64,000 nucleotides of DNA from the NCBI GenBank assembly GCA_012520795.1, contig JAAYNP010000047.1:1-64000 (forward strand). The letters are read 5' to 3'. Position numbers and translations under genes: made by a program. This document shows positions 5,265-40,388 of this stretch, piece after piece. The notes under the pieces were generated by a model. It was not told where the DNA came from. It searched no databases and saw only the letters and a program-made list of their open reading frames with translations. This stretch comes from Bacillota bacterium. GTDB lineage: Bacteria > Bacillota > Limnochordia > Darwinibacteriales > DTU012. How positions within the stretch are numbered: the stretch's first letter is position 1; each line of letters opens with the position of its first letter.

Positions 5265-5327
5265 TTGCAGGAGTCTGTGTTATGTTCATGGAAGTCTTCA
5301 TAAATGAGAACTTAGGGGGAGGGTGTG

Positions 5328-8300
5328 ATGAAGAAAAAGCATCTATTGATTGGATTGGTAATGCTGGTCTGCCTTGTCGCTGCCGGGGGTGCAGCCGAGG
5401 CAGGAGCAACTGCCGATGCCAGCCTTAAGGTTTGGTATACATTTGATCTGGCCGACGGCAGCACCATCGTTGATCAGTCGGGCAGCGGCCATGATGGCGT
5501 GCTTTACGGGACGGCCAGCCTGGAGCCGGGGTACCACGGGAGTGCCCTTGCGTTTAACGGCATCGACAATTACATCTTGATGGGAAACCATTCCCAACTG
5601 CAGCCTGCTGATCTGACGGTTGCCTTCTGGTTCAAAAAGGTAAGCAGCCTGGCCGGGCAGGAGGGCATTATTGTCTGGGCAAAGCCCGACGGGCGCTGGG
5701 ACGGCAATGGATGGTACCTGACAATCAAAGATCAGTTTCATGAGACAAACCGGCCTGTACTGCTGATGGTTGACGGCAATACGGCTGCATATGTCCACGA
5801 CGATGTTGACCTGTTTTATCCTCTCGGCGAGTGGGTCCATGTGGCAGTCACTCTCGATTCCCAATCCGGGGAGGTGGCCGTCTACCGCAACGGTGCAGCC
5901 CAGCAGGTTCATCTGACGGGGGTACCCAGAATTACGGCAACCGCCGATCCCAAGTGGTTAGGTTTCAACTCCCCTGCATACAACGGTGGTTATCTGAGGG
6001 GAGTAGTCGACGATTTCCGTATCTATGACACTGCCTTGTCTCCGGAAGCTATTCGTGAACTCGCGGGGAGAGGAGAGAGTATCGAAGATACAAGCCACAC
6101 CACGGCGCGATATCTTGTGCCTGCGGAAACGTTTCCGGAGGCACTGCCAGAAGGAGGGATCGCTCTGAACTGCAAACCATTTGCTTTGTCACAAGTAAGG
6201 CTGTTGGACGGGGTTTACAAGGATCTGATGGAACTCAATGCCCAGTACCTGCGTGATCTGGATTCGGATCGCCTGCTGCATATGTTTCGGGTTACTGCGG
6301 GGCTGCCGTCAAAAGCTGTCCCGCTCGGCGGTTGGGAAGCCCCCCATATGGAGATTCGGGGCCACACCATGGGCCACTACCTTTCAGCTTGCGCACTGCT
6401 CTATGCCAGTACAGGAGACTTGGAGATCAAAGCCAAAGCCGACGCTCTCATTGATGAATTGAAGAAATGTCAGGATGCCCACGGAAACGGCTATCTTTCT
6501 GCTTTTCCGGAAACACATTTTGACCGCCTGGAAGCCGGGCAAAATGTGTGGGTGCCCTGGTACACCATGCACAAGATTTTTGCCGGGCTTTATGATCAGT
6601 ACATCCATACCGGCAGTGAAACAGCCCTGGACATGCTCCTGAAGCTGACAGACTGGGCAGGGGAAAGGACAGGCAAACTTACCGATGGCCAGATGGCGGC
6701 ACTGCTCAATGTGGAATTTGGCGGAATGAATGAAGTCTTATACAATGTATACGCCATTACCGGTGATCCCAAGCATCTGGAACTTGCCCATCGTTTTGAC
6801 CACCGGGCAATCCTCGATCCTCTGGCCAGCGGGCGGGACCTCCTGGCGGGGCTGCATGCCAACACCCAAATCCCGAAAGTGGTTGGAGCCGCCCGCCGCT
6901 ATGAACTGACCGGTGATCCGTGGGCGCATGCCGCTGCCAAGAACTTTTGGGACTTGGTGGTGCTAACGCGCAGCTATGCAACGGGAGGCAACAGTGCCAA
7001 CGAGCATTTCGGACCCGCAAATCAATTGGCTTTTACTTTGGGCAATACCAACCATGAGACCTGCAACACATACAACATGCTGCGTCTGACCCGCCACCTG
7101 TTCCAATGGACCGGATGCATAACCTATGCGGATTACTACGAACGGGCTCTGCTTAACGGCATTTTGTCCACGATCAATCCGGAAACCGGGATGAAGATGT
7201 ATTTTGTACCTATGGGCACAGGCTATTTCAAAGTGTTCCACACCCACGACAATTCGTTTTACTGCTGTACCGGGACAGGAATGGAATCCTTTGCCAAGCT
7301 GGGTGACAGCATTTACTTCCATCAAGATCGGGCTTTGTATGTGAACCTGTTTGTGCCCTCACTGCTGGATTGGCCCGAGCTGGAGGTGCGCATTGAACAG
7401 CAAACCCGGTTCCCTGTTGAAGCCGGGACAACCTTGGTGATCCATTGTCAAGAGCCGGTGGAGTTTGCCCTCAACATCCGGATCCCTTCCTGGGCTGTCA
7501 ACGGTGTAACAGTGAAGTACAACGGGCACGAGCTTGAGTGCGATGCCCAACCTGGGTCCTATTTGCAGATTGAGCACACGTGGCACAGCCAGGACACACT
7601 TGAGGTCCAGATGCCCATGTCACTGCACCTCGCTCCACTGCCGGACAAACCAGACCGGGTTGCCTTGATGTACGGGCCTCTGGTCTTGTGCGGCTTGTTG
7701 GGCAGGGATAACATGCGGATTGCGACTACCGGTGTCAATGTCACGATTCCCAACCCCGGCGCCGAACGCCGTTCGTACCTTGGCATACCTGAGCATGAGC
7801 AGGATCAGGTTGATCAATGGCTTGTGCCTGTGCCGGGTGAAGAACTGACATTCAGGCTTCGCCCGGATCTTGGCGAGCTTGTGTTCAAACCATTTTACCA
7901 GGTTTATCAGGAACGCTACGGCATCTATTGGGACTTGGGAACACCTGATGAAACCGTAATTGCAGAACCGCAGCAGGATCCAGTATTGTGGTATCGGTTT
8001 GATCAGCCCTCAGAGGGCCGGCTGGTGCTTGATCAATCCGGCAGCGGCCTGCATGGAGAATTGGTTGGGGGAGCAGCGGTTAAAGCCGCAGGGCCGGGCT
8101 TGGGTTATCTGGAGCTCGATGGCGTAAGCGGCTGCCTGCGTTTGCCTGACGGGATCGTCAGCAATCTGGAACAGGCAACTATCAGCACCTGGGTCTATCT
8201 CCATGCGGACCGGGCTTGGGCCAGGGTGTTTGATTTCGGTACAGGGACTCAGGTGAACATGTTTTTGACACCTTTGGCAGCCGGAACTCCGGAACTGCGC

Positions 8301-8642
8301 TTTGCCATCACCACCTCCGGTGCAGCCGGTGAAAGCCTGTTTGGACGCCCGGCCAGGCCGGCCACCAATCAGTGGGTCCATCTGGCTGTTACCATAGACA
8401 AATCCAAAGCCGTCCTCTATGTCGATGGCGGGCAAGCTGCGGTTTCCAACCAAATCCACACTTATCTCTGGGAGTTGGGCAAGACTACGCAGAACTACCT
8501 GGGCCGGTCCCAATACCCAGCGGATCCCTACCTGGATGGGCTGATTGCCGACTTCCGGATTTACAGCAGGGTTTTGAGCTCAGATGAAATCAAAGCCATC
8601 AATCAAGAGTTTACGCTCAATCGTGCCGAGGGTGGAAAATGA
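5328..8642 (+). CDS. Secreted GH127 beta-L-arabinofuranosidase with two LamG-type domains
   Basis: A 1104-residue exported enzyme predicted to release beta-linked L-arabinofuranose from plant glycans. Order: Sec signal peptide (about 1-26), a LamG/concanavalin-type module (about 33-240), the GH127 catalytic region (about 280-870, also called DUF1680) and a second LamG-type module (about 885-1095). GH127 enzymes use a zinc-bound cysteine as nucleophile. The equivalents are visible here: Glu577 and Cys579 in HETCNTYNM, and Cys646-Cys647 in FYCCTGTGME. The ATG at 5328 sits 5-6 bases after AGGGGGAGG; a GTG three bases earlier is possible. It overlaps the reading region of the GH51 gene, implying co-transcription. 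The two carbohydrate-binding-like modules suggest action on insoluble polymer; substrate is inferred. Confidence 0.9.
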   Translation: MKKKHLLIGLVMLVCLVAAGGAAEAGATADASLKVWYTFDLADGSTIVDQSGSGHDGVLYGTASLEPGYHGSALAFNGIDNYILMGNHSQLQPADLTVAFWFKKVSSLAGQEGIIVWAKPDGRWDGNGWYLTIKDQFHETNRPVLLMVDGNTAAYVHDDVDLFYPLGEWVHVAVTLDSQSGEVAVYRNGAAQQVHLTGVPRITATADPKWLGFNSPAYNGGYLRGVVDDFRIYDTALSPEAIRELAGRGESIEDTSHTTARYLVPAETFPEALPEGGIALNCKPFALSQVRLLDGVYKDLMELNAQYLRDLDSDRLLHMFRVTAGLPSKAVPLGGWEAPHMEIRGHTMGHYLSACALLYASTGDLEIKAKADALIDELKKCQDAHGNGYLSAFPETHFDRLEAGQNVWVPWYTMHKIFAGLYDQYIHTGSETALDMLLKLTDWAGERTGKLTDGQMAALLNVEFGGMNEVLYNVYAITGDPKHLELAHRFDHRAILDPLASGRDLLAGLHANTQIPKVVGAARRYELTGDPWAHAAAKNFWDLVVLTRSYATGGNSANEHFGPANQLAFTLGNTNHETCNTYNMLRLTRHLFQWTGCITYADYYERALLNGILSTINPETGMKMYFVPMGTGYFKVFHTHDNSFYCCTGTGMESFAKLGDSIYFHQDRALYVNLFVPSLLDWPELEVRIEQQTRFPVEAGTTLVIHCQEPVEFALNIRIPSWAVNGVTVKYNGHELECDAQPGSYLQIEHTWHSQDTLEVQMPMSLHLAPLPDKPDRVALMYGPLVLCGLLGRDNMRIATTGVNVTIPNPGAERRSYLGIPEHEQDQVDQWLVPVPGEELTFRLRPDLGELVFKPFYQVYQERYGIYWDLGTPDETVIAEPQQDPVLWYRFDQPSEGRLVLDQSGSGLHGELVGGAAVKAAGPGLGYLELDGVSGCLRLPDGIVSNLEQATISTWVYLHADRAWARVFDFGTGTQVNMFLTPLAAGTPELRFAITTSGAAGESLFGRPARPATNQWVHLAVTIDKSKAVLYVDGGQAAVSNQIHTYLWELGKTTQNYLGRSQYPADPYLDGLIADFRIYSRVLSSDEIKAINQEFTLNRAEGGK

Positions 8643-8659
8643 TCATGGAGGAGAGGTTG

Positions 8660-11179
8660 ATGAACAGATTATGTCTGTGGGCGGCAATTCTTTTTCTAGG
8701 ATTAGGAATGGGGTGTGATTCTGTGAGTACAGAAACCAGTGCGGGAACCGGCATATTGCAGATCCATGCGGACAAACAAGGAGCTGCCATTAGCGATATT
8801 CTCTACGGTGTCTTTTTCGAAGATATCAATCACGGCGCCGACGGCGGTTTGCATGCGGAAATGGTGCGAAACCGTTCGTTCGAATTCAGCAGGGCGGACG
8901 GGGCCGGCATGCACGGTTTGACAGCCTGGAGCCTTGTCCAGCGCGGCGGCGGGCGTGCTTCCATCAGAGTAGGCAATCAAGAGCCGCTCAACAATGGGAA
9001 CAGAAACTATCTTGTAATTGAGCTTGCAGCTGAGGAAGGTCTGGCCGGTGTGCGCAATTCCGGGTACAACTTGGGCCTGCATCTGGAAGCGGGCAAGAGT
9101 TATCTGTTCTCGTTTTATGCCCGGCGGACCGAGGATTTTGACAAGCCGTTCAAGATCACCTTGGAAAACCCGGCGGGAACTGTCTATGCGGATGCGTCGA
9201 TTATCGTTGATTCCACCGGATGGAAGAAATACACAGCCCGGCTAACCGCCAGCGGCAGCACGGTAACGGGCCGCCTGGTAGTCGTGACATCCGGGACCGA
9301 TACGGTTAATCTCGACATGGTTTCTCTCTATCCGGAGGATACCTTTATGGGTTTGCCCATACGGGCTGATATTGCCCGGATGATCGCTGATCTCAAACCT
9401 GCCTTTTTCCGGTTCCCGGGCGGCTGTATTGTTCATGCCGGTTCTTACAGGGAAGATGCACCTTACAGGGTTTACCGCTGGAAGGATACCATTGGGGACC
9501 CGGCTCAAAGGCCGGAGAGCGCCAGCATGTGGGCGGCAAACCATCAATCCTTCGGCCTGGGCTTCTATGAGTACTTCCTCTTTGCGGAAGCGATTGGCGC
9601 AACTCCCATTCCCCACGTAACCGCCGGTATCGATCCTCACGAGGTCCCCGGCGAGAGGGGAGCTTGGTATGTCGTACCACTGCGTCAGATGCAGGAGTGG
9701 ATCGACAATGCCCTGGATCTGATTGAATTCGCCAATGGGGATGTGACTACGAAATGGGGCGCCATCAGGGCTGAATTGGGGCATCCGGAACCGTTCAACC
9801 TGAAATACATCGGCATAGGCAATGAAGACATCGGCAGCGATTATTCCCAGCGGTTCGTCCTGTTCCAAAAGGCGATCAAGGAGAAATACCCGGATATCCA
9901 AGTCATATCGTCCAGCGGCCCTTGGTCTCAGGGCTGGGAGTTTGACTACGGCTGGCAGTTTTCCAAAGAAGCAGGCGCCGATGTCGTCGATGAGCATTTT
10001 TATAATGATCCCAACTGGTTTTTGGAAAACTGGCGCCGCTATGACAGCTATGACCGGAGCGGCCCCAAAGTGTTCATCGGTGAATACGCATCCAAAGGCA
10101 ACACATTCTACAACGCCTTGGCGGAAGCAGCATTCATGACCGGCATTGAACGCAACGGAGATGTTGTGGCCATGGCGTCATACGCACCGCTGCTGGCCAA
10201 TGTGGATTATCTCAACTGGACACCGGACTTGATTTGGTTCAACAACCACCAGGTCTACGGCACACCCAACTACTACGTACAGCAGATGTTTTCCCACAAC
10301 AAGGGGGACGTGGTTATTCCCAGCACTTTCACCGGGACTGTTGGGGAGCTTGCAGAACCGGAACCAATCAGGGGTGCCATCGGCCTGTCCACATGGAACA
10401 CCCAGGCGAAATTCACTGATGTGAAGGTAATCGACAATGAAACCGGAGCTGTATTGTTCAGCGACGATTTCGCCGATGCATCCCAGTGGCAGGCCAAAGG
10501 CGGGAATTGGTGCATCGCCGACGGTTGGTATGTCCAAAAGGGCAGCGGGACTGATCTGCGGGCCTACGTCGGTGATGAGGACTGGTCCAACTACACCCTG
10601 ACATTGAAGGCCGCCAAACTGAGCGGCGCTGAGGGGTTCCTGATCATGTTCGGGCGCAGGGATGACCACAACTACTATTGGTGGAATATCGGCGGCTGGA
10701 ACAATACCCAGCATGCCATTGAAAAAGCCGTCAACAGTTCCCGGGGACCGGTGATCAGCAGGGGTGACACTCCCATTCAGATCGGCCGCGAATACGACAT
10801 CAAGATTGTGATGGAAGGACGCAGGATCCGCTGCTATCTTGACGGGCGCTTGGTTCATGATTATTATGACGGGCCCAAACAGGTGGAGCCGCTCTATTAT
10901 GTAACATCCAAAGACCTGGAAACAGGCGACTTGATCCTTAAGGCGGTCAACACTTTAGGCAGCCCCATGGAAACCCGGATAGTGGTTGACGGTGTTGAAC
11001 AGGTTGAACCTGAGGCTGCCGTGATTTGCCTTACAGCCGACAAACTCGATGCGGTCAATTCATTCCAGAAACCGGACAATGTAACAACGGCCACCAAACA
11101 GATCACAGGGGTGAGTACAGATTTTGCTTATACATTCCCTTCCTATTCTGTTACCATCATGCGCTTAAAGGCGAAATAA
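8660..11179 (+). CDS. Exported GH51 alpha-L-arabinofuranosidase with inserted beta-sandwich module
   Basis: Predicted to remove alpha-L-arabinofuranosyl side groups from arabinan or arabinoxylan. The 839-residue protein starts with a lipoprotein-like signal ending LGMGC (Cys19); the lipobox is imperfect. An N-terminal carbohydrate-binding-like region (about 70-220) precedes the GH51 barrel. The acid/base is Glu389 in GIGNED and the nucleophile Glu475 in FIGEYA. The all-beta C-terminal domain is interrupted by a module of roughly 180 residues (about 570-750) that resembles a LamG/DUF1080 beta-sandwich. The ATG at 8660 was chosen because GGAGGAG lies 6 bases upstream; in-frame ATGs at 8639 and 8645 precede it. 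Many GH51 enzymes are cytoplasmic, so export is notable. It acts beside the GH127 gene. Confidence 0.88.
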   Translation: MNRLCLWAAILFLGLGMGCDSVSTETSAGTGILQIHADKQGAAISDILYGVFFEDINHGADGGLHAEMVRNRSFEFSRADGAGMHGLTAWSLVQRGGGRASIRVGNQEPLNNGNRNYLVIELAAEEGLAGVRNSGYNLGLHLEAGKSYLFSFYARRTEDFDKPFKITLENPAGTVYADASIIVDSTGWKKYTARLTASGSTVTGRLVVVTSGTDTVNLDMVSLYPEDTFMGLPIRADIARMIADLKPAFFRFPGGCIVHAGSYREDAPYRVYRWKDTIGDPAQRPESASMWAANHQSFGLGFYEYFLFAEAIGATPIPHVTAGIDPHEVPGERGAWYVVPLRQMQEWIDNALDLIEFANGDVTTKWGAIRAELGHPEPFNLKYIGIGNEDIGSDYSQRFVLFQKAIKEKYPDIQVISSSGPWSQGWEFDYGWQFSKEAGADVVDEHFYNDPNWFLENWRRYDSYDRSGPKVFIGEYASKGNTFYNALAEAAFMTGIERNGDVVAMASYAPLLANVDYLNWTPDLIWFNNHQVYGTPNYYVQQMFSHNKGDVVIPSTFTGTVGELAEPEPIRGAIGLSTWNTQAKFTDVKVIDNETGAVLFSDDFADASQWQAKGGNWCIADGWYVQKGSGTDLRAYVGDEDWSNYTLTLKAAKLSGAEGFLIMFGRRDDHNYYWWNIGGWNNTQHAIEKAVNSSRGPVISRGDTPIQIGREYDIKIVMEGRRIRCYLDGRLVHDYYDGPKQVEPLYYVTSKDLETGDLILKAVNTLGSPMETRIVVDGVEQVEPEAAVICLTADKLDAVNSFQKPDNVTTATKQITGVSTDFAYTFPSYSVTIMRLKAK

Positions 11180-28649: not shown

Positions 28650-30020
28650 TTACAGCCAATCTACAGCCGAGCAAGCGAGGATATCTTCTTCCGCAAGGCC
28701 GTGGGCTGCGGCTTTATCCACGGCTGAAACCGCTGCCAGGCAGCCGTATTTGCGCGCGATGGGAACAATAGCGGCGAGTGTATCCGAGCCCGTTCCTTCC
28801 AGGTTGATGATGGGCCGTCCGTTATAGATGCGGGCGGCTGCTTCGATCACTTCCGGATCGGCACTGCTGATTATCAACGGGAGCCTGACCACCCCTTGGA
28901 TCTCTTTGAGCGCTTTGACCATCATATCCTTTTCATCGATGCCGGGCATGCCCACGTTCACATCCAGGATGTCGGCGCCTTCATCCTGCTGGTTGAGGGC
29001 TTGCTGAACCAAAAAGTCCAGATCGGCGCAGAGCAGGGTGTTCGCCAGCTGCCCGCCGGTGCCGGGATTGATCCGGCCGCCAACGATCCTGACCTCGCCC
29101 CCTAATATCACGGTTGTCCTGCCGGAACTGGCCGCCTTCAGCCGAGGTGCTTTTACCGGCGCCGGTTTTGTATCAGCCAACGCGTCTTTCAGCGCTTTGA
29201 TATGGGCAGGGGTTGTACCGCAGCAGCCGCCAAGGATCCGGGCACCAACGGCTGCCATCTCCCGCCCATAGGCTGCAAAATCGGCAGGTGTGATCCGGTA
29301 CAATGCTTCTTCTTCCACCAACTGAGGCAAACCTGCGTTTGGCTGGGCTATGACTGGGATTTGAGCAAATTTCACGATTTCCTCAAGCACCGGTAGAATC
29401 TCCCTGGGTCCGAGGGAACAGTTGATACCCAAAGCGGCAACCCCGAGGCTCTGCAGCACATTGACCACTGTCAGCGGATCGGCTCCCGTCAGGGTACGGC
29501 CGTTTTCCTGAAAGGTCATGGTGCAGAATACGGGCAGAGCTGAATTCTCCCGGGCCGCAAGGACGGCTGCCTTTGCTTCGTAGAGATCGGACATGGTTTC
29601 AATCAGAATTAGATCGGCACCTGCTTCAGCCCCTATGCGGATCTGTTCGGCAAAGGCTGCGTACGCCTCATCAAAGCTCAAAGTGCCGTAGGGCTCCATC
29701 AGCTGGCCCAAAGGGCCGATGTCCAGGGCCACCAGGCCGTCTTTTGCCGCCTGCCGGGCTGTCTCCACAGCCGCGCGGATAACAGCGGCCTGATCCAGCC
29801 CAGCCCTGGCCAGTTTAAACCTGTTGGCGCTGAATGTATTGGTGGTCACAACCTGGGAGCCCGCTGCGATATATGCGCGGTGGATTTCGGCAACGGTTTC
29901 CGCCTGTTCCAGGTTGGATCTTTCAGCGAGTTCCCCAGTTTGCAGGCCGCAGCTTTGGAGCATGGTCCCCATGGCACCGTCAAAAACCAAGAATTGGTCA
30001 AAATCAAGCATGCGCTTCAT
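28650..30020 (-). CDS. MetH-like homocysteine S-methyltransferase with truncated pterin domain
   Basis: The first 290 residues form a complete homocysteine-binding barrel that transfers a methyl group to homocysteine. Its zinc ligands are present: Cys201 (GINCSLGP) and Cys266-Cys267 (GGCCGTTP). A pterin (methyl-tetrahydrofolate) domain begins near residue 310 but is only about half the normal length and ends 36 bases before obgE. Its conserved VGERINPTG is changed to VGGRINPGTG and IDSSDP to IISSADP, so folate binding is doubtful. No cobalamin domain follows. It may use another methyl donor, or depend on a separate partner, or be decaying. ATG 30020 was chosen; GTG 30026 and ATG 30011 are alternatives. 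Read divergently from xylA. Confidence 0.8.
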   Translation of the reverse strand: MKRMLDFDQFLVFDGAMGTMLQSCGLQTGELAERSNLEQAETVAEIHRAYIAAGSQVVTTNTFSANRFKLARAGLDQAAVIRAAVETARQAAKDGLVALDIGPLGQLMEPYGTLSFDEAYAAFAEQIRIGAEAGADLILIETMSDLYEAKAAVLAARENSALPVFCTMTFQENGRTLTGADPLTVVNVLQSLGVAALGINCSLGPREILPVLEEIVKFAQIPVIAQPNAGLPQLVEEEALYRITPADFAAYGREMAAVGARILGGCCGTTPAHIKALKDALADTKPAPVKAPRLKAASSGRTTVILGGEVRIVGGRINPGTGGQLANTLLCADLDFLVQQALNQQDEGADILDVNVGMPGIDEKDMMVKALKEIQGVVRLPLIISSADPEVIEAAARIYNGRPIINLEGTGSDTLAAIVPIARKYGCLAAVSAVDKAAAHGLAEEDILACSAVDWL

Positions 30021-30047
30021 CGTCACCCCTGCCCTTCCTGCATTGAA

Positions 30048-35577: not shown

Positions 35578-36888
35578 TTGGGTAACAAGACATTTCCCCG
35601 TGGTGGTGGTCATATTCCGCATCGTAAAGATGCGACAAAAAATAAACCGGTTATGGCCATGCCTGCCCCGCAGCAGGCAGTAATCCCTTTAAGCCAGCAC
35701 GCCGGGGCTCCCTGCCGGCCAGTCGTCAAGGTTGGCGGTCGTGTCAAACTGGGGCAGAAGATTGGCGAAGCTGAGCAGTATGTTTCCGCGCCGGTTCACG
35801 CCAGTGTGTCGGGAGAGGTTGTGGAAATCACCGAAAGGCCGCTGCTTGATGGCACCAAATCAATGTGCGTGATAATTGAAAACGACGGCCTTGATGAGGC
35901 GGAGCCCCTGGTTGCACAGGACTATTCACGGCTGTCGGTAAGCCAGATCGCCGAACTGATCCGGGAGGCGGGCGTTGTCGGTTTGGGAGGGGCAGGGTTT
36001 CCCACCCATGTCAAGGTCGAACCGCCAAAGCCTGTTGACACGGTGCTGATCAATGGGGCGGAGTGTGAGCCGTACTTGACATGTGACCACCGCCTGATGC
36101 TCGAGCAACCGCATAAACTGATCGAAGGCTTGAAGATCTTGATGCAAGCCGTGGGTGCGCGTCAAGGGATTATCGGTGTTGAGGTGAACAAGCCTGAGGT
36201 GATCCGGGTATTGGAGCAGGCCTGTGCCGAACAATCCTATGTCCGTGTCGCGGGCTTGAAGGTCAAGTACCCGCAGGGTGCGGAAAAACAGCTGATCAAA
36301 GCGATCCTCGGCCGGGAAGTGCCTTCCGGAGGCTTGCCGGCTGATGTAGGGTGCATTGTCCAAAATGTGCAAACTGCTGTTGCCGTTACCGATGCAGTCG
36401 TTCACGGCGTTGGGCTTTACCAGCGAGTAATCACTGTTGCGGGAGCGGCTGTGTACGATCCCCGTAATGTCCTGGTCCGGATCGGCACGCCGATTCGGGA
36501 TGTGATTGACTTCTGCGGCGGAATGGGAAACCCGGCGGCCATCATTGCCGGCGGCCCCATGACCGGGCAGCTTGTCCAGGACTTGACGGCACCGGTGGTT
36601 AAACCACTGTCCGGGATTTTGGTGCTGTCCAAAGACGAAATCAGTTATGAGTTGAACCAGCCGTGCATCCGGTGCGCCCGCTGCATAGATCACTGCCCCA
36701 TGGGTTTGCAGCCGAATTTCCTGGCTGACTGGAGCAACAAGGGGTTGTATGATCAGGCCGAGAGGAATCATATCATGGACTGCATCGAATGCAGCCTATG
36801 TTCATATGTATGCCCGGCGAAACGAGGTTTGTGCAGGTCGATTCAAGCAGGCAAGCAGGTAGTAAGAGCTGGAAAAACAGCAGTTTGA
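35578..36888 (+). CDS. rnfC: Rnf electron-transport complex subunit C
   Basis: Cytoplasmic-side subunit that exchanges electrons with NAD(H) through FMN and two [4Fe-4S] clusters. The 436 residues contain the barrel-sandwich N-terminus, the FMN/NADH-binding 51-kDa-like domain with GLGGAGFPTHVK and NGAECEPYLTCDHRLM, a SLBB-type domain, and the C-terminal ferredoxin motifs. The cluster ligands are Cys363, 366, 369, 373 and Cys402, 405, 408, 412, all intact. TTG 35578 follows GAAAGGGTG. First gene of rnfC-rnfDG-rnfE-rnfA, with 14 bases or less (or overlaps) between genes. Confidence 0.95.
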   Translation: MGNKTFPRGGGHIPHRKDATKNKPVMAMPAPQQAVIPLSQHAGAPCRPVVKVGGRVKLGQKIGEAEQYVSAPVHASVSGEVVEITERPLLDGTKSMCVIIENDGLDEAEPLVAQDYSRLSVSQIAELIREAGVVGLGGAGFPTHVKVEPPKPVDTVLINGAECEPYLTCDHRLMLEQPHKLIEGLKILMQAVGARQGIIGVEVNKPEVIRVLEQACAEQSYVRVAGLKVKYPQGAEKQLIKAILGREVPSGGLPADVGCIVQNVQTAVAVTDAVVHGVGLYQRVITVAGAAVYDPRNVLVRIGTPIRDVIDFCGGMGNPAAIIAGGPMTGQLVQDLTAPVVKPLSGILVLSKDEISYELNQPCIRCARCIDHCPMGLQPNFLADWSNKGLYDQAERNHIMDCIECSLCSYVCPAKRGLCRSIQAGKQVVRAGKTAV

Positions 36889-36902
36889 CGGAGGTGAGTC
36901 AC

Positions 36903-39197
36903 ATGAATGCAAAACAGGAATTGTGGGCGCCGGTAATCAGAACAAAAGACAGCATACCACAGATCATGTTCGATGTTTTTTTGGCTCTAATACCTTGTTG
37001 GCTGGCAGGTTTGATCTTTTTTGGCTTGCCTGCCTTGTGGATTGTGCTGCTCAGTACGGCAACCGCAGTGTTGGTTGAGGCATTGTTTATGCGTTATCCT
37101 TTGAGTCTGAAAGGCATATTCGGTGACGGCAGCAGCCTCGTTACAGGGGTGTTGGTCGGCTTGATCTTGCCTCCGACGGTGCCGTGGTGGATTCCCATCG
37201 TCGGTTCCGCGCTGGCGATTACCATAGGCAAGCTGGTGTTCGGCGGCCTCGGCAACAACATCTTCAACCCGGCATTGATTGGACGGGCAGTGCTGCTTCT
37301 AGCCTTTACAGCTCCGATGGTCAAGTATGTCAGCCCTTTTGACGCGGTTACTGAAGCCACACCTTTACTTGCCATGCGTTCTTTTGACTGGGCTTTGGTC
37401 TGGGGTAATGTCAGCGGCAGTATTGGTGAAACATCGGTAATAGCCATTCTCATAGGGGCAGCGTACTTGGTTTTCCGAAAGCTGATTGACTGGCGGATCC
37501 CCGTTGGTTATGCAGGCACCGCGTTTGCCGTGGCCTATATCTGGGGGCTTGATCCGTGGCTGGCTGTCACCGGCGGCGGCCTGCTTTTTGCCGCTGTGTT
37601 CATGGCTACAGACATGGTCACATCTCCCGTCAACCCAATGGGCCGGTTGCTGTTTGGGTGCGGCTGCGGCCTTTTGACAATCCTGCTGAGGAAGTACACT
37701 TCTTTTCCGGAAGGGGTCACGTTCGCCATCCTCACCATGAATGCCCTGGTGCCTCTGTTGGACATGCTGACTGTCCCCGTTATTTTCGGGGCGCGGCGCA
37801 GCAGGGAACAGCGTTTTGCCACCACAATCGCGGTGGCTGTAGTGATCTGCCTGGCCTGGGGCGTTTTGGCTGTGATCAACCGGACGGTCCCCGAAGAGGT
37901 GCCGGCGACAGCTGACGGAGTCTATTTGCCGCTGGTGGAAACTCTCGGCACTGACGCCTACGCGACGGCAGCCATCAATGACAAGGTCTATTACTTCACC
38001 GGCGCCCAGGAAGCACCGGAGAAGGTGGCACTGGTTGGTTCGGAACAGGGGTATCATGGCCCGGTGTATTTCTACCTGGTTTTGGACGGTTCAGGCCGGA
38101 TAGAGCACATTCAAATCCTTACCCACAGCGATGATCCTGGATTGGGCAGCCTGATCACCCGGCGTTCCTTCCTCGATCAGTTTATTGGTCTTGATGGCAC
38201 AGAACTGGTCGCGGACGTCGATATCCAAGGCATTACAGGAGCAACCATTTCATCGCGGGCAGTGATCCGGGGTGTTGCCAATGAACTGGAGCGGTTTCAG
38301 GAAGCCTTCTACGGCAGTGCCGGGGACGATGCTGCCGCAGGTTATGTTGATGGATCTTATCTGGCAGAAGCTTCCGGCTTTGGCGGCCCCGTCAAAGTGG
38401 AAGTCACCATTGTTAATGGCCGGATTGCTGCTGTGAAGGTGTTGGAGCATCAAGAGACTCTTGGGATTTCCGACGAGGCGGTTAAAGTCATGCCGCAGCG
38501 GATTGCGGAAGCCAACAGCCCCGATGTGGATCTGGTAAGCGGCGCAACCGTCACCAGCAAAGCAATCGCCGTTGCTGTGCAAAAGGCCTTGGATCAGGCT
38601 GAAGTGAAAGAGCCCGGCGGGTCCCAAGGCCTTGCCGCAAATGTCCCCGATGGTGTCTACCGGGGCAAAGGCGCCGGTTTCAACGGCGATGTGGTTGTTG
38701 ATGTGACTGTTGCCGGCGGCCGGATTACGGCGCTTGAGGTGGTGGAGCATGCGGATACTCCCTTGTATGCCCAGGGAGCCTTTACCCAGCTGATCCCAGC
38801 GATCATCGAAGCGCAGGAGCTGGTGGATGCCCGCGCTGGAGCTACATTCAGCAGCAGGGGATTGCTGGCGGCAGTGGAGGCTGCTGTCAGTGGTGCGGCA
38901 GTACCAAGCGGAGGCGGCCTGGCAGGTGATTTGCCCGATGGTGTCTATCGGGGCAGAGGCACAGGTTTTGGCGGAGAAATGGTTGTCGATGTCACCGTTT
39001 CCGGCGGCCGGATTATGGCAATTGAGGTTGTGGAGCATGCGGATACAGCCCTCTATGCGCAGGGAGCCTTTACCCAGCTGATTCCGGAGATCATCGCAAG
39101 GCAGGAATTTGTGGATGCCCGCGCTGGAGCCACCTTCAGCAGTAAAGGGCTGTTAGAAGCAGTGGAAACTGCCCTGACAGGAAAGGAGGCGCAGTAA
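36903..39197 (+). CDS. rnfD: Fused RnfD-RnfG protein with three extra FMN-binding domains
   Basis: A 764-residue protein joining subunits normally encoded separately. Residues 1-303 are RnfD: many membrane spans and a candidate flavin-linked Thr153 in EATPL. Residues 304-475 are RnfG: one membrane segment (about 305-327) and an FMN-binding domain with TGAT ending at Thr448. Three more FMN-binding domains follow (about 480-563, 581-662, 677-760), with the motifs SGAT (Thr549), AGAT (Thr648) and AGAT (Thr744). In RnfG-type proteins the Thr of (S/T)GAT is covalently linked to FMN by ApbE; no apbE is in this window. The last two domains have Ala in place of the first Ser/Thr. ATG 36903 follows ACGGAGGTGAG. 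Five flavins on one chain would make an extracytoplasmic redox wire; this is inference. Confidence 0.9.
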   Translation: MNAKQELWAPVIRTKDSIPQIMFDVFLALIPCWLAGLIFFGLPALWIVLLSTATAVLVEALFMRYPLSLKGIFGDGSSLVTGVLVGLILPPTVPWWIPIVGSALAITIGKLVFGGLGNNIFNPALIGRAVLLLAFTAPMVKYVSPFDAVTEATPLLAMRSFDWALVWGNVSGSIGETSVIAILIGAAYLVFRKLIDWRIPVGYAGTAFAVAYIWGLDPWLAVTGGGLLFAAVFMATDMVTSPVNPMGRLLFGCGCGLLTILLRKYTSFPEGVTFAILTMNALVPLLDMLTVPVIFGARRSREQRFATTIAVAVVICLAWGVLAVINRTVPEEVPATADGVYLPLVETLGTDAYATAAINDKVYYFTGAQEAPEKVALVGSEQGYHGPVYFYLVLDGSGRIEHIQILTHSDDPGLGSLITRRSFLDQFIGLDGTELVADVDIQGITGATISSRAVIRGVANELERFQEAFYGSAGDDAAAGYVDGSYLAEASGFGGPVKVEVTIVNGRIAAVKVLEHQETLGISDEAVKVMPQRIAEANSPDVDLVSGATVTSKAIAVAVQKALDQAEVKEPGGSQGLAANVPDGVYRGKGAGFNGDVVVDVTVAGGRITALEVVEHADTPLYAQGAFTQLIPAIIEAQELVDARAGATFSSRGLLAAVEAAVSGAAVPSGGGLAGDLPDGVYRGRGTGFGGEMVVDVTVSGGRIMAIEVVEHADTALYAQGAFTQLIPEIIARQEFVDARAGATFSSKGLLEAVETALTGKEAQ
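38643..39180 (+). repeat. Tandem duplication of an FMN-binding domain inside the RnfD-RnfG fusion
   Basis: Two in-frame units of about 250 bases start at 38643 and 38931 (288-base period). Both encode (V/L)PDGVYRG(K/R)G.GF, EVVEHADT.LYAQGAFTQLIP and VDARAGATFSS. They are clearly more like each other than like the preceding FMN domain, which suggests a recent duplication. Confidence 0.85.
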
Positions 39198-39794
39198 ATG
39201 TCACTGGGAAGGACCTTTTTCAAAGGAATCTGGCGTGAAAACCCTGTTTTGCGGTTGGCGGTCGGGCTGGTACCGGTTCTCGGGATCGCCCATTTGGCAA
39301 TCAACGGTGTTTACCTCGGCCTGGCGACTGCAGTGGTGCTTTTGGCGGCCGTTTTGGTGAAGATTCTTTTTGCCAATCTGGTTTCGAAAGAAGTGGGTAT
39401 TTTTGTTGATTTTGCCTCCTTGACCATATTCACCACCCTGCTGTACCGGTTGACGGGAGTCTATCAGCCTGAGCTCCTGGTCCAGCTGGGAATCTATCTC
39501 CCTTTGGTTGCGGTGAATGGATTTGTACTGCAAAGGCTGTCTGTGGATCAGCCCCCTGCAGCCCGGATCGCCGATGCCTTGGGCATGGGCCTGGGCTATA
39601 CCGCAGTCTTGACATTGGTGGGCATGATTCGGGAGTTTGTCGGTTTGGGGCAGTTCTTCGGCAGGGCAGTCCTCAACGGTTCTTTGACACCGTTTTCCCT
39701 AGCGGCTACTGTCCCTGGGGGGTTTGTGATTGTAGGTCTACTGATAGCTCTTTACAATGCATTGAGTGGAACGGGAGGGGAAATCAATGAATGA
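39198..39794 (+). CDS. rnfE: RnfE-like membrane subunit lacking the [2Fe-2S] cysteines
   Basis: A 198-residue RnfE/NqrD-family membrane protein with about six spans. The N-terminal FKGIWRENPVL, GLATAVVLL and LGIYLPLVAVN segments align with ordinary RnfE. In those proteins Cys25 (GLCP) and Cys108 (VNC/TNC) bind the membrane [2Fe-2S] cluster shared with RnfA. Here the positions are Val25 (GLVP) and Gly108 (VNGF), and the whole protein has no cysteine. The ATG directly follows the stop codon of the fused gene, with AAAGGAGG upstream. It overlaps rnfA by 8 bases. Confidence 0.9.
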   Translation: MSLGRTFFKGIWRENPVLRLAVGLVPVLGIAHLAINGVYLGLATAVVLLAAVLVKILFANLVSKEVGIFVDFASLTIFTTLLYRLTGVYQPELLVQLGIYLPLVAVNGFVLQRLSVDQPPAARIADALGMGLGYTAVLTLVGMIREFVGLGQFFGRAVLNGSLTPFSLAATVPGGFVIVGLLIALYNALSGTGGEINE

Positions 39795-40338
39795 CGGGCT
39801 GAAACTTCTGGCTGAGGGTGTAATCACCCACAACCTGGCCCTGTTTCAAGGCCTGGGCATTTATGCCCTGCTGCGGTATACCAAGTCGATCTGCAGTGCG
39901 TCTAAAGCCGCCCTGGTAATGCTCGCCACCACCCTTACATCTTGTGCTTTGGTGTGGGGGGCCAGCCCGCTGATGCCGGCAAATTACAGCATGCGCCTGC
40001 CGTTCTATCTGATGGTTGCCTTGGCAGCCGGGCTCTTCTGGCGCAAGCTTTTGGCGCAGATGCTTGGCAAAGAGCTGTCCCTGGATTTACCAGCAGTTTT
40101 TGTTAATTCAGCCCTGGTGGGTGTGCTGCTGACAGTGCCTGAGGGGCTCGCAGAAGGGCCGGGGATTGTCAGTTACGGCCTTGCCTATGCAGTGGGCTAT
40201 GGATTGGTGTTGATCGTTATGGCGGGCATACGGGCCCGGTTGGAGCTGGTGGATGTGCCAAAGCCCTTCCGGGGAGTGCCGATTCTGCTGATCTCCGCTG
40301 CTTTGCTGGCCTTGGCTTTGATGGGATATCGATTGTAA
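39787..40338 (+). CDS. rnfA: RnfA-like membrane subunit lacking the [2Fe-2S] cysteines
   Basis: A 183-residue RnfA/NqrE-family membrane protein with about six spans. The C-terminal segment VDVPKPFRGVPILLISAALLALALMG aligns closely with ordinary RnfA (DVPxPFRG). The cluster-binding cysteines of the family (GLCP and TNCAVLG) are replaced by Tyr26 (LGIYAL) and Ser108 (VNSALVG). Cys36 and Cys53 are elsewhere and do not match ligand positions. ATG 39787 after GGGAGGGGAAA. The operon ends here with a terminator and no rnfB follows, unlike the common rnfCDGEAB order. Confidence 0.9.
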   Translation: MNDGLKLLAEGVITHNLALFQGLGIYALLRYTKSICSASKAALVMLATTLTSCALVWGASPLMPANYSMRLPFYLMVALAAGLFWRKLLAQMLGKELSLDLPAVFVNSALVGVLLTVPEGLAEGPGIVSYGLAYAVGYGLVLIVMAGIRARLELVDVPKPFRGVPILLISAALLALALMGYRL

Positions 40339-40360: not shown

Positions 40361-40388
40361 AAATTGTGGGGATTATCCCCACAATTTT
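40361..40388 (+). terminator. Rho-independent terminator after the Rnf-like operon
   Basis: Perfect 12-base inverted repeat AAATTGTGGGGA (40361-40372) / TCCCCACAATTT (40376-40387) with a TTA loop. The T tail is short. Confidence 0.75.

Follow-up and report, generated by a model that had tools for sequence, protein, structure and literature searches.

An Rnf-type operon without rnfB and without the [2Fe-2S] cysteines of RnfA and RnfE in the order Darwinibacteriales (Bacillota)

Background

In the canonical Rnf complex (RnfABCDGE), electrons pass from ferredoxin to RnfB, to the [2Fe-2S] cluster of RnfA and RnfE, to the flavin mononucleotide (FMN) of RnfG, to the FMN and riboflavin of RnfD, to the [4Fe-4S] clusters and FMN of RnfC, and from there to nicotinamide adenine dinucleotide (NAD) (PMC11889175). 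The [2Fe-2S] ligands in Rnf of Acetobacterium woodii are C25 and C113 of RnfA and C25 and C108 of RnfE, and the enzyme with mutated AE1-cluster cysteines does not catalyze ferredoxin-dependent reduction of NAD+ (PMC11889175). The subject of this report is an operon in a stretch of 64,000 nucleotides (the window; positions 1 to 64,000 of contig JAAYNP010000047.1, here contig C144, in assembly GCA_012520795.1, which is 2.37 Mb long and 99% complete) from a member of the order Darwinibacteriales (Bacillota, Limnochordia). The operon encodes RnfC, a fused RnfD-RnfG, RnfE and RnfA without RnfB, and its RnfE and RnfA have none of the four [2Fe-2S] cysteines; this operon and its homologues in relatives are called the X type below.

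The likeness of the X type to Rnf lies in its homologous RnfC, RnfD, RnfG, RnfE and RnfA, in the cofactor residues of RnfC and RnfD and in the clostridial gene order C-D-G-E-A, but it differs by the missing RnfB and [2Fe-2S] cysteines, the RnfD-RnfG fusion, the presence of up to six FMN domains and its place in a separate clade beside canonical Rnf. Among the features of the ferredoxin:NAD enzyme, those of RnfC, RnfD and RnfG are found and two defining ones, RnfB and the [2Fe-2S] cluster, are not; the X type is a new form within the Rnf/Nqr superfamily and falls outside the ferredoxin:NAD Rnf enzymes. Na+-NQR is also without RnfB, but it keeps the [2Fe-2S] cysteines, has gained NqrF for NADH input and has an NqrA that lost the RnfC cofactors, and the X type is the reverse on all three counts; the window operon contains no NqrF-type gene for NADH/FAD/2Fe-2S input. 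For the two-subunit NQR/RNF-like systems (Meheust 2021, PMC8238504; Huang 2024, PMC11334425), a similar half-path has been proposed, leading one way from NAD(P)H to an extracytosolic FMN domain, but these systems have NqrB/RnfD fused to PF00175, lack RnfC, RnfE and RnfA and have lost the flavinylation threonine of RnfD, whereas the X type has RnfC as its NADH module, has RnfE and RnfA and keeps the threonine; the fused protein of the window contains PF03116 and PF04205 only and no PF00175 NAD-binding domain. The RNF clusters with multi-flavinylated RnfG (PMC8238504) likewise have several FMN_bind domains on RnfG and a proposed path to outside acceptors, but they were assigned by RnfB, so that their ferredoxin arm is kept and the X type is uncounted under that definition. 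CbFMN4 and SaFMN3 (PMC10339131) also have tandem FMN_bind domains, but in the X type the tandem tail is fused to membrane-bound RnfD. No description of an RnfB-less, cysteine-free Rnf was found in the literature searched, the scope of which excluded most subscription journals.

Gene content and cofactor sites of the operon

The operon consists of four genes:
35578 to 36888, + strand: rnfC-type gene with an NADH/FMN module and two [4Fe-4S] cysteine sets, 436 amino acids from a TTG start (TIGR01945, 511 bits against a cut-off of 246)
36903 to 39197, + strand: fused rnfD-rnfG, 764 amino acids from the ATG at 36903 (PF03116 and four PF04205 stretches)
39198 to 39794, + strand: rnfE-type gene without both [2Fe-2S] cysteines, 198 amino acids (PF02508, 110 bits; TIGR01948, 106 bits, below the cut-off of 213)
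39787 to 40338, + strand: rnfA-type gene without both [2Fe-2S] cysteines, 183 amino acids, likely start ATG at 39787 (PF02508; TIGR01943, 67 bits, below the cut-off of 229)

Pfam and NCBIfam agree on these genes, which form a single tight run with spacings of 14 bp and 0 bp followed by an overlap of 8 bp, and the original prediction, which was made from the sequence alone, had both the genes and their coordinates right. It had also reported the lack of rnfB, which is borne out: neither the window nor any of the 28 relatives that were read has rnfB in or next to the operon, and every uncut locus among them has the order rnfC-rnfDG-rnfE-rnfA. RnfC and RnfD of the window pass the curated cut-offs for Rnf, and RnfG (95 bits; cut-off 102), RnfE and RnfA fall below them. 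Alignments were made directly to solved Rnf/Nqr chains, with the A. woodii structure 9eri as the reference. RnfC aligns over nearly its full length with 9eri_C (E 1.5e-129), and the predicted fold of RnfA matches 9eri_A with a TM score of about 0.63, in a model (pLDDT 71) that supports the fold only.

The residues at the four [2Fe-2S] ligand positions, compared with controls from canonical, Nqr-like and outside sequences, are as follows:
39270 to 39272, + strand: RnfE position of ligand C25, Val in the window; Cys in 0 of 29 X-type loci and in 70 of 70 controls
39519 to 39521, + strand: RnfE position of ligand C108, Gly in the window; Cys in 0 of 29 X-type loci and in 69 of 70 controls
39862 to 39864, + strand: RnfA position of ligand C25, Tyr in the window; Tyr in 27 and Phe in 2 of 29 X-type loci, Cys in all controls that have a residue at this position
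40108 to 40110, + strand: RnfA position of ligand C113, Ser in the window; Cys in 0 of 29 X-type loci and in 75 of 75 controls

Thus, no X-type locus has a cysteine at any ligand position and nearly all controls do. The substitutes for C113 of RnfA are Ser, Thr or Gly, C25 of RnfE is mostly replaced by Val, and C108 of RnfE by Gly, Ala, Ser, Asp, Glu or Thr; replacement metal ligands in RnfA and RnfE were considered and ruled out, as neither protein of the X type has a conserved His or Cys that could serve. RnfC retains the NADH/FMN motifs GAECEPYL, GLGGA and YPQGAEKQL, and all eight of its cluster cysteines are kept in 13 of 13 X-type sequences. In RnfD, the residues that correspond to N123 and D249 of A. 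woodii, which coordinate riboflavin, are kept (14 of 14 X-type sequences), and so is the region of the threonine that carries covalent FMN. RnfB and the cluster ligands of RnfA/RnfE are gone together, and RnfG is tethered to RnfD through the fusion. The main argument of the analysis is that the ferredoxin arm is missing as a unit, and that the tested cofactor residues of the NADH arm, in RnfC and RnfD, are intact as a unit. The changes in RnfE and RnfA and the retention of the RnfC sites agree with what had been predicted, and the accompanying claim that the usual ferredoxin-to-NAD path cannot run is strongly supported by the absence of RnfB, by the ligand counts and by the cysteine mutants of A. 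woodii (PMC11889175).

A partial change of the same site was seen in a metagenome-assembled genome of Nitrospirae, in which RnfE (L136 7324-7992) is without the second cluster cysteine only, reading VVFAII where others read VVNCII, and RnfA keeps both cysteines; this is possibly an independent event.

Fused RnfD-RnfG and its FMN domains

The fused protein begins with the RnfD membrane domain, continues with an extra hydrophobic, transmembrane-like segment at about amino acids 303-330 and ends in a tail of four FMN_bind domains, which is presumably extracytosolic. Its flavin sites are:
37359 to 37361, + strand: threonine of RnfD at the aligned position of the covalent-FMN threonine (TEATPL), in a region kept in 14 of 14 X-type RnfD sequences
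38049 to 38288, + strand: FMN_bind domain 1, the RnfG core, QGITGAT, without the usual Asp of the ApbE motif
38376 to 38594, + strand: FMN_bind domain 2, DLVSGAT, with the full ApbE motif
38676 to 38888, + strand: FMN_bind domain 3, DARAGAT
38964 to 39176, + strand: FMN_bind domain 4, DARAGAT

By the published definition of the ApbE motif (PMC12052999), one of the four domains is complete and the other three have GAT with variant flanks. Domain 2 is matched by 8p2b, which is domain 1 of CbFMN4 (E 2.3e-12). A multi-flavinylated protein has more than one FMN_bind domain and is extracytosolic, and the fused protein, with four domains and a predicted outside location for them, answers to this description. 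An AlphaFold2 model of the fused protein is compatible in secondary structure and of low confidence (mean pLDDT 67, pTM 0.39), too weak for geometry. Across X-type loci the number of FMN domains per fused protein ranges from 1 to 6.

In Peptococcaceae bacterium 1109, the fused RnfDG (L050 4081-7935) has 1285 amino acids and five FMN_bind domains; the long region that separates its third motif from the last is not accounted for by any Pfam model. Contigs of metagenome-assembled genomes often break inside or just before the FMN_bind repeats (L036, L038, L039, L040, L041, L043, L044, L045, L051, L054, L058, L061); the repeats probably break short-read assemblies and cause the X type to be under-counted.

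Canonical Rnf and other flavin proteins of the genome

A search of the whole genome for rnfB, a second rnf operon and apbE, which the original prediction had called for, found all three together: contig C7 carries a complete canonical rnfC-D-G-E-A-B-apbE operon (L003 8544-14499). The genome encodes a single RnfB-type protein (PF04060) and a single ApbE (PF02424), both in this operon and adjacent, and the RnfE and RnfA encoded there retain all cluster cysteines. Thus, the genome has a normal Rnf, which was out of sight for the original prediction, and the divergent window operon as a second system. Further FMN_bind proteins of the genome are on contigs C9 (membrane-anchored, near rseC), C64 (secreted, 241 amino acids) and C69 (anchored, 131 amino acids), and these extracytosolic proteins could be partners of the X-type complex.

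The protein on C9 belongs to a conserved flavin locus in which an anchored FMN_bind protein of 1-3 domains is encoded upstream of rseC and downstream of a gene for a pyridoxal-phosphate enzyme and/or a ketohexokinase-like gene. In the genome of the window (G000), contig C9 starts inside the gene (L181 1-850); the locus is complete in relatives (L214, L215, L216, L217, L218, L219).

Distribution, genomic site and evolution

A search with RnfA of 101 genomes separated two score groups: 29 genomes, all of the same order, have the X type (E < 1e-23), and many more have ordinary RnfA (E of about 1e-12); an RnfA profile gave 211-264 bits for the X type and about 102 for the best ordinary RnfA. Profile matches occur in 29 of the 37 genomes of the order and in 0 of 36 genomes elsewhere in the class, and a sample of 398 genomes of the phylum has the X type in members of the order only. 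The operon is also present in G007, on a broken contig, which brings the order to at least 30 of 37 genomes. A pattern scan of 84,980 species, one genome each, found 25 X loci, all in uncultured assemblies named as Bacillota, Clostridia or Limnochordia, and the further matches that could be checked keep their cysteines; the patterns were short and divergent members may be missed.

The site of the operon is fixed, between a block of rsfS and a methyltransferase gene and the genes comEA and comEC, with nadD, LCP, holA and gpr as further conserved neighbors. The neighborhood was considered as a source of a partner gene and dropped as uninformative. In G006, of the same family, the site is empty, with the methyltransferase gene about 430 bp from comEA, and an RnfB-type protein and canonical RnfA are present. 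In six further genomes without a match (G002, G008, G012, G016, G024, G027), contigs end at the site or comEC was not recovered. G017, which appears to have the X type only, with no RnfB and no canonical RnfA, was given no weight, since the ApbE of the canonical operon is also missing and a missing contig is likely.

In a tree of concatenated RnfD, RnfE and RnfA, the X type forms one clade with 100/100 support and a stem of 1.39 on the Rnf side, and the Nqr-like sequences of the same order, which are identified as such by gene content and lack of an RnfC match and not by a family model, form their own clade (100/100) apart from it. Descent of the X type from Nqr is ruled out by this tree; its exact place inside Rnf is uncertain because the stem is long. 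Branching inside the clade tracks the families of the host genomes; this and the fixed locus suggest that the operon was inherited vertically through the order. In comparisons of close members, the ratio of nonsynonymous to synonymous substitution rates (dN/dS) of each of the four genes lies in the range 0.04-0.11, values that are approximate, with synonymous sites near saturation in several pairs, and clearly less than 1; thus, all four genes are under purifying selection.

Several relatives (L153-L162) have a third operon of Rnf/Nqr type, which is Nqr-like and encodes homologues of D, G, E and A that keep the cluster cysteines; it was not detected in the genome of the window.

Predicted electron path and alternatives

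The X type is probably a form of Rnf peculiar to its clade that has lost one arm of the U-shaped path (ferredoxin, RnfB and the RnfA/RnfE cluster), so that NADH, RnfC, RnfD and RnfG would constitute a one-way route to extracytosolic flavins. NADH would reduce the FMN and [4Fe-4S] clusters of RnfC; electrons would cross the membrane via the riboflavin and FMN of RnfD to the FMN of RnfG and pass through the extra FMN domains to an extracytosolic acceptor; RnfE and RnfA would remain as a cluster-free scaffold; and the ApbE encoded by the canonical operon, being the only one of the genome, would attach flavins to the fused protein. The potential of NADH is about -320 mV and that of a multi-FMN protein is -184 mV, so outward flow would be downhill and is expected. 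A flavin chain from NADH to the outside, as had been predicted, appears to be the best remaining reading, judging by the conserved cofactor residues of RnfC and RnfD and the multiplied outer FMN domains.

Several observations weigh against this one-way route. The minimal ApbE motif is without its Asp in domain 1 and without its Ser/Thr in domains 3 and 4; FMN domains vary in number (1-2 in L037, 2-3 in others), and since the number is not constant a long flavin wire is not essential; the conserved neighbors are housekeeping and sporulation genes that give no functional hint; and the route does not account for the retention under selection of RnfE and RnfA if they carry no cofactor. The proposed route is extrapolated from known Rnf.

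In a different reading, the complex would be an ion-coupled respiratory pump and more than an electron conduit, with oxidation of NADH by an outside acceptor driving Na+ or H+ through RnfD or through the cluster-free RnfA/RnfE. Both proteins are kept in all loci under purifying selection although they hold no known cofactor, R154 of RnfA is kept in 29 of 29 X-type loci and K32 and E158 mostly, and an ion path through RnfD is favored by some authors (described in PMC11889175, PMC12174285). However, the Na+ path of A. woodii is through RnfA/RnfE and is driven by the redox state of the [2Fe-2S] cluster (PMC11889175), which is gone in the X type, and the window (Gly/Ser) and many relatives no longer have an intact R67-E115 pair in RnfE, to which a part in Na+ movement is attributed. 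A pump of this kind is unlikely.

Electron flow in the opposite sense, from an outside donor (a syntrophic partner, reduced humic substances or sulfur compounds) through the flavin chain to NAD+, perhaps using the membrane potential, is improbable. Since Rnf is reversible (PMC11889175), the same could hold for the half-chain that remains, and the evidence does not fix the direction; but FMN domains near -184 mV, the midpoint of a three-FMN protein (PMC10339131), make reduction of NAD+ uphill, and the coupling element of RnfA/RnfE is missing.

A mixed complex, in which the X-type genes supply spare or alternative subunits that join RnfB and other canonical subunits, draws on the presence of canonical rnfCDGEAB in the same genome and of an RnfB-type protein in 36 of the 37 genomes of the order. 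The original prediction had named such an rnfB elsewhere, co-occurring with the operon in relatives, as evidence that would count against it; formally this was found, but it is judged to be no real refutation: that rnfB is part of another, complete operon; the X site of G006 is empty although this genome has both an RnfB-type protein and canonical RnfA, side by side; and RnfB without the RnfA/RnfE cluster has no electron acceptor. The X subunits are also a separate, long-diverged clade, and mixing of subunits is very improbable. Decay of a paralogue or an assembly artefact, which might be read from the scores of RnfE, RnfA and RnfG below the curated cut-offs, can be dismissed almost entirely, pseudogenes and assembly errors being ruled out by dN/dS of 0.04-0.11, by uninterrupted reading frames and by the recurrence of the locus in 29 separate genomes, with the cofactor residues of RnfC and RnfD untouched.

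Other features of the window

Beyond the end of rnfA there is one further feature of the operon:
40361 to 40387, + strand: hairpin 3' of rnfA with a 12-bp perfect stem, a possible terminator (RNA fold of about -18 kcal/mol)

The original prediction had the operon closed by a terminator; the hairpin is there and is plausible in that role, but its T tail is short and a strict terminator scan did not list it. Promoter and terminator scans gave results at chance level, and no Rfam element was found near the operon. Elsewhere in the window, an open reading frame of homocysteine-methyltransferase/pterin-binding type (28650-30026, - strand) seems to stop early in its second domain and is possibly a truncated or frameshifted MetH-like gene, and two large adjacent open reading frames at 5325-11179 resemble secreted arabinan/arabinoside hydrolases; both are impressions from the sequence.

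Conclusions

A more ambitious proposal, made tentatively, is that the X type may be a respiratory enzyme of a class not described before: an Rnf without RnfB and [2Fe-2S] in which NADH is oxidized and electrons leave along a chain of covalently bound flavins, RnfE and RnfA having been kept for a new function that needs no cluster, for example conducting or gating ions. If true, this would be a separate evolutionary route to the principle of a half-Rnf. An operon without rnfB that arose after duplication of rnf is the postulated precursor of Nqr (PMC4014512), and the X type shows a possible sequel of duplication and rnfB loss with an outcome other than Nqr. Surveys that define RNF by RnfB would overlook it. 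The Rnf/Nqr pump is regarded as centered on the membrane [2Fe-2S] cluster of RnfA/RnfE, and it is disputed whether RnfA/RnfE or RnfD conducts the ions; a natural, selected Rnf without this cluster makes the dispute directly testable. The finding suggests that, in a group of uncultured anaerobes, covalent flavins can carry the electrons of NADH to an acceptor outside the cell.

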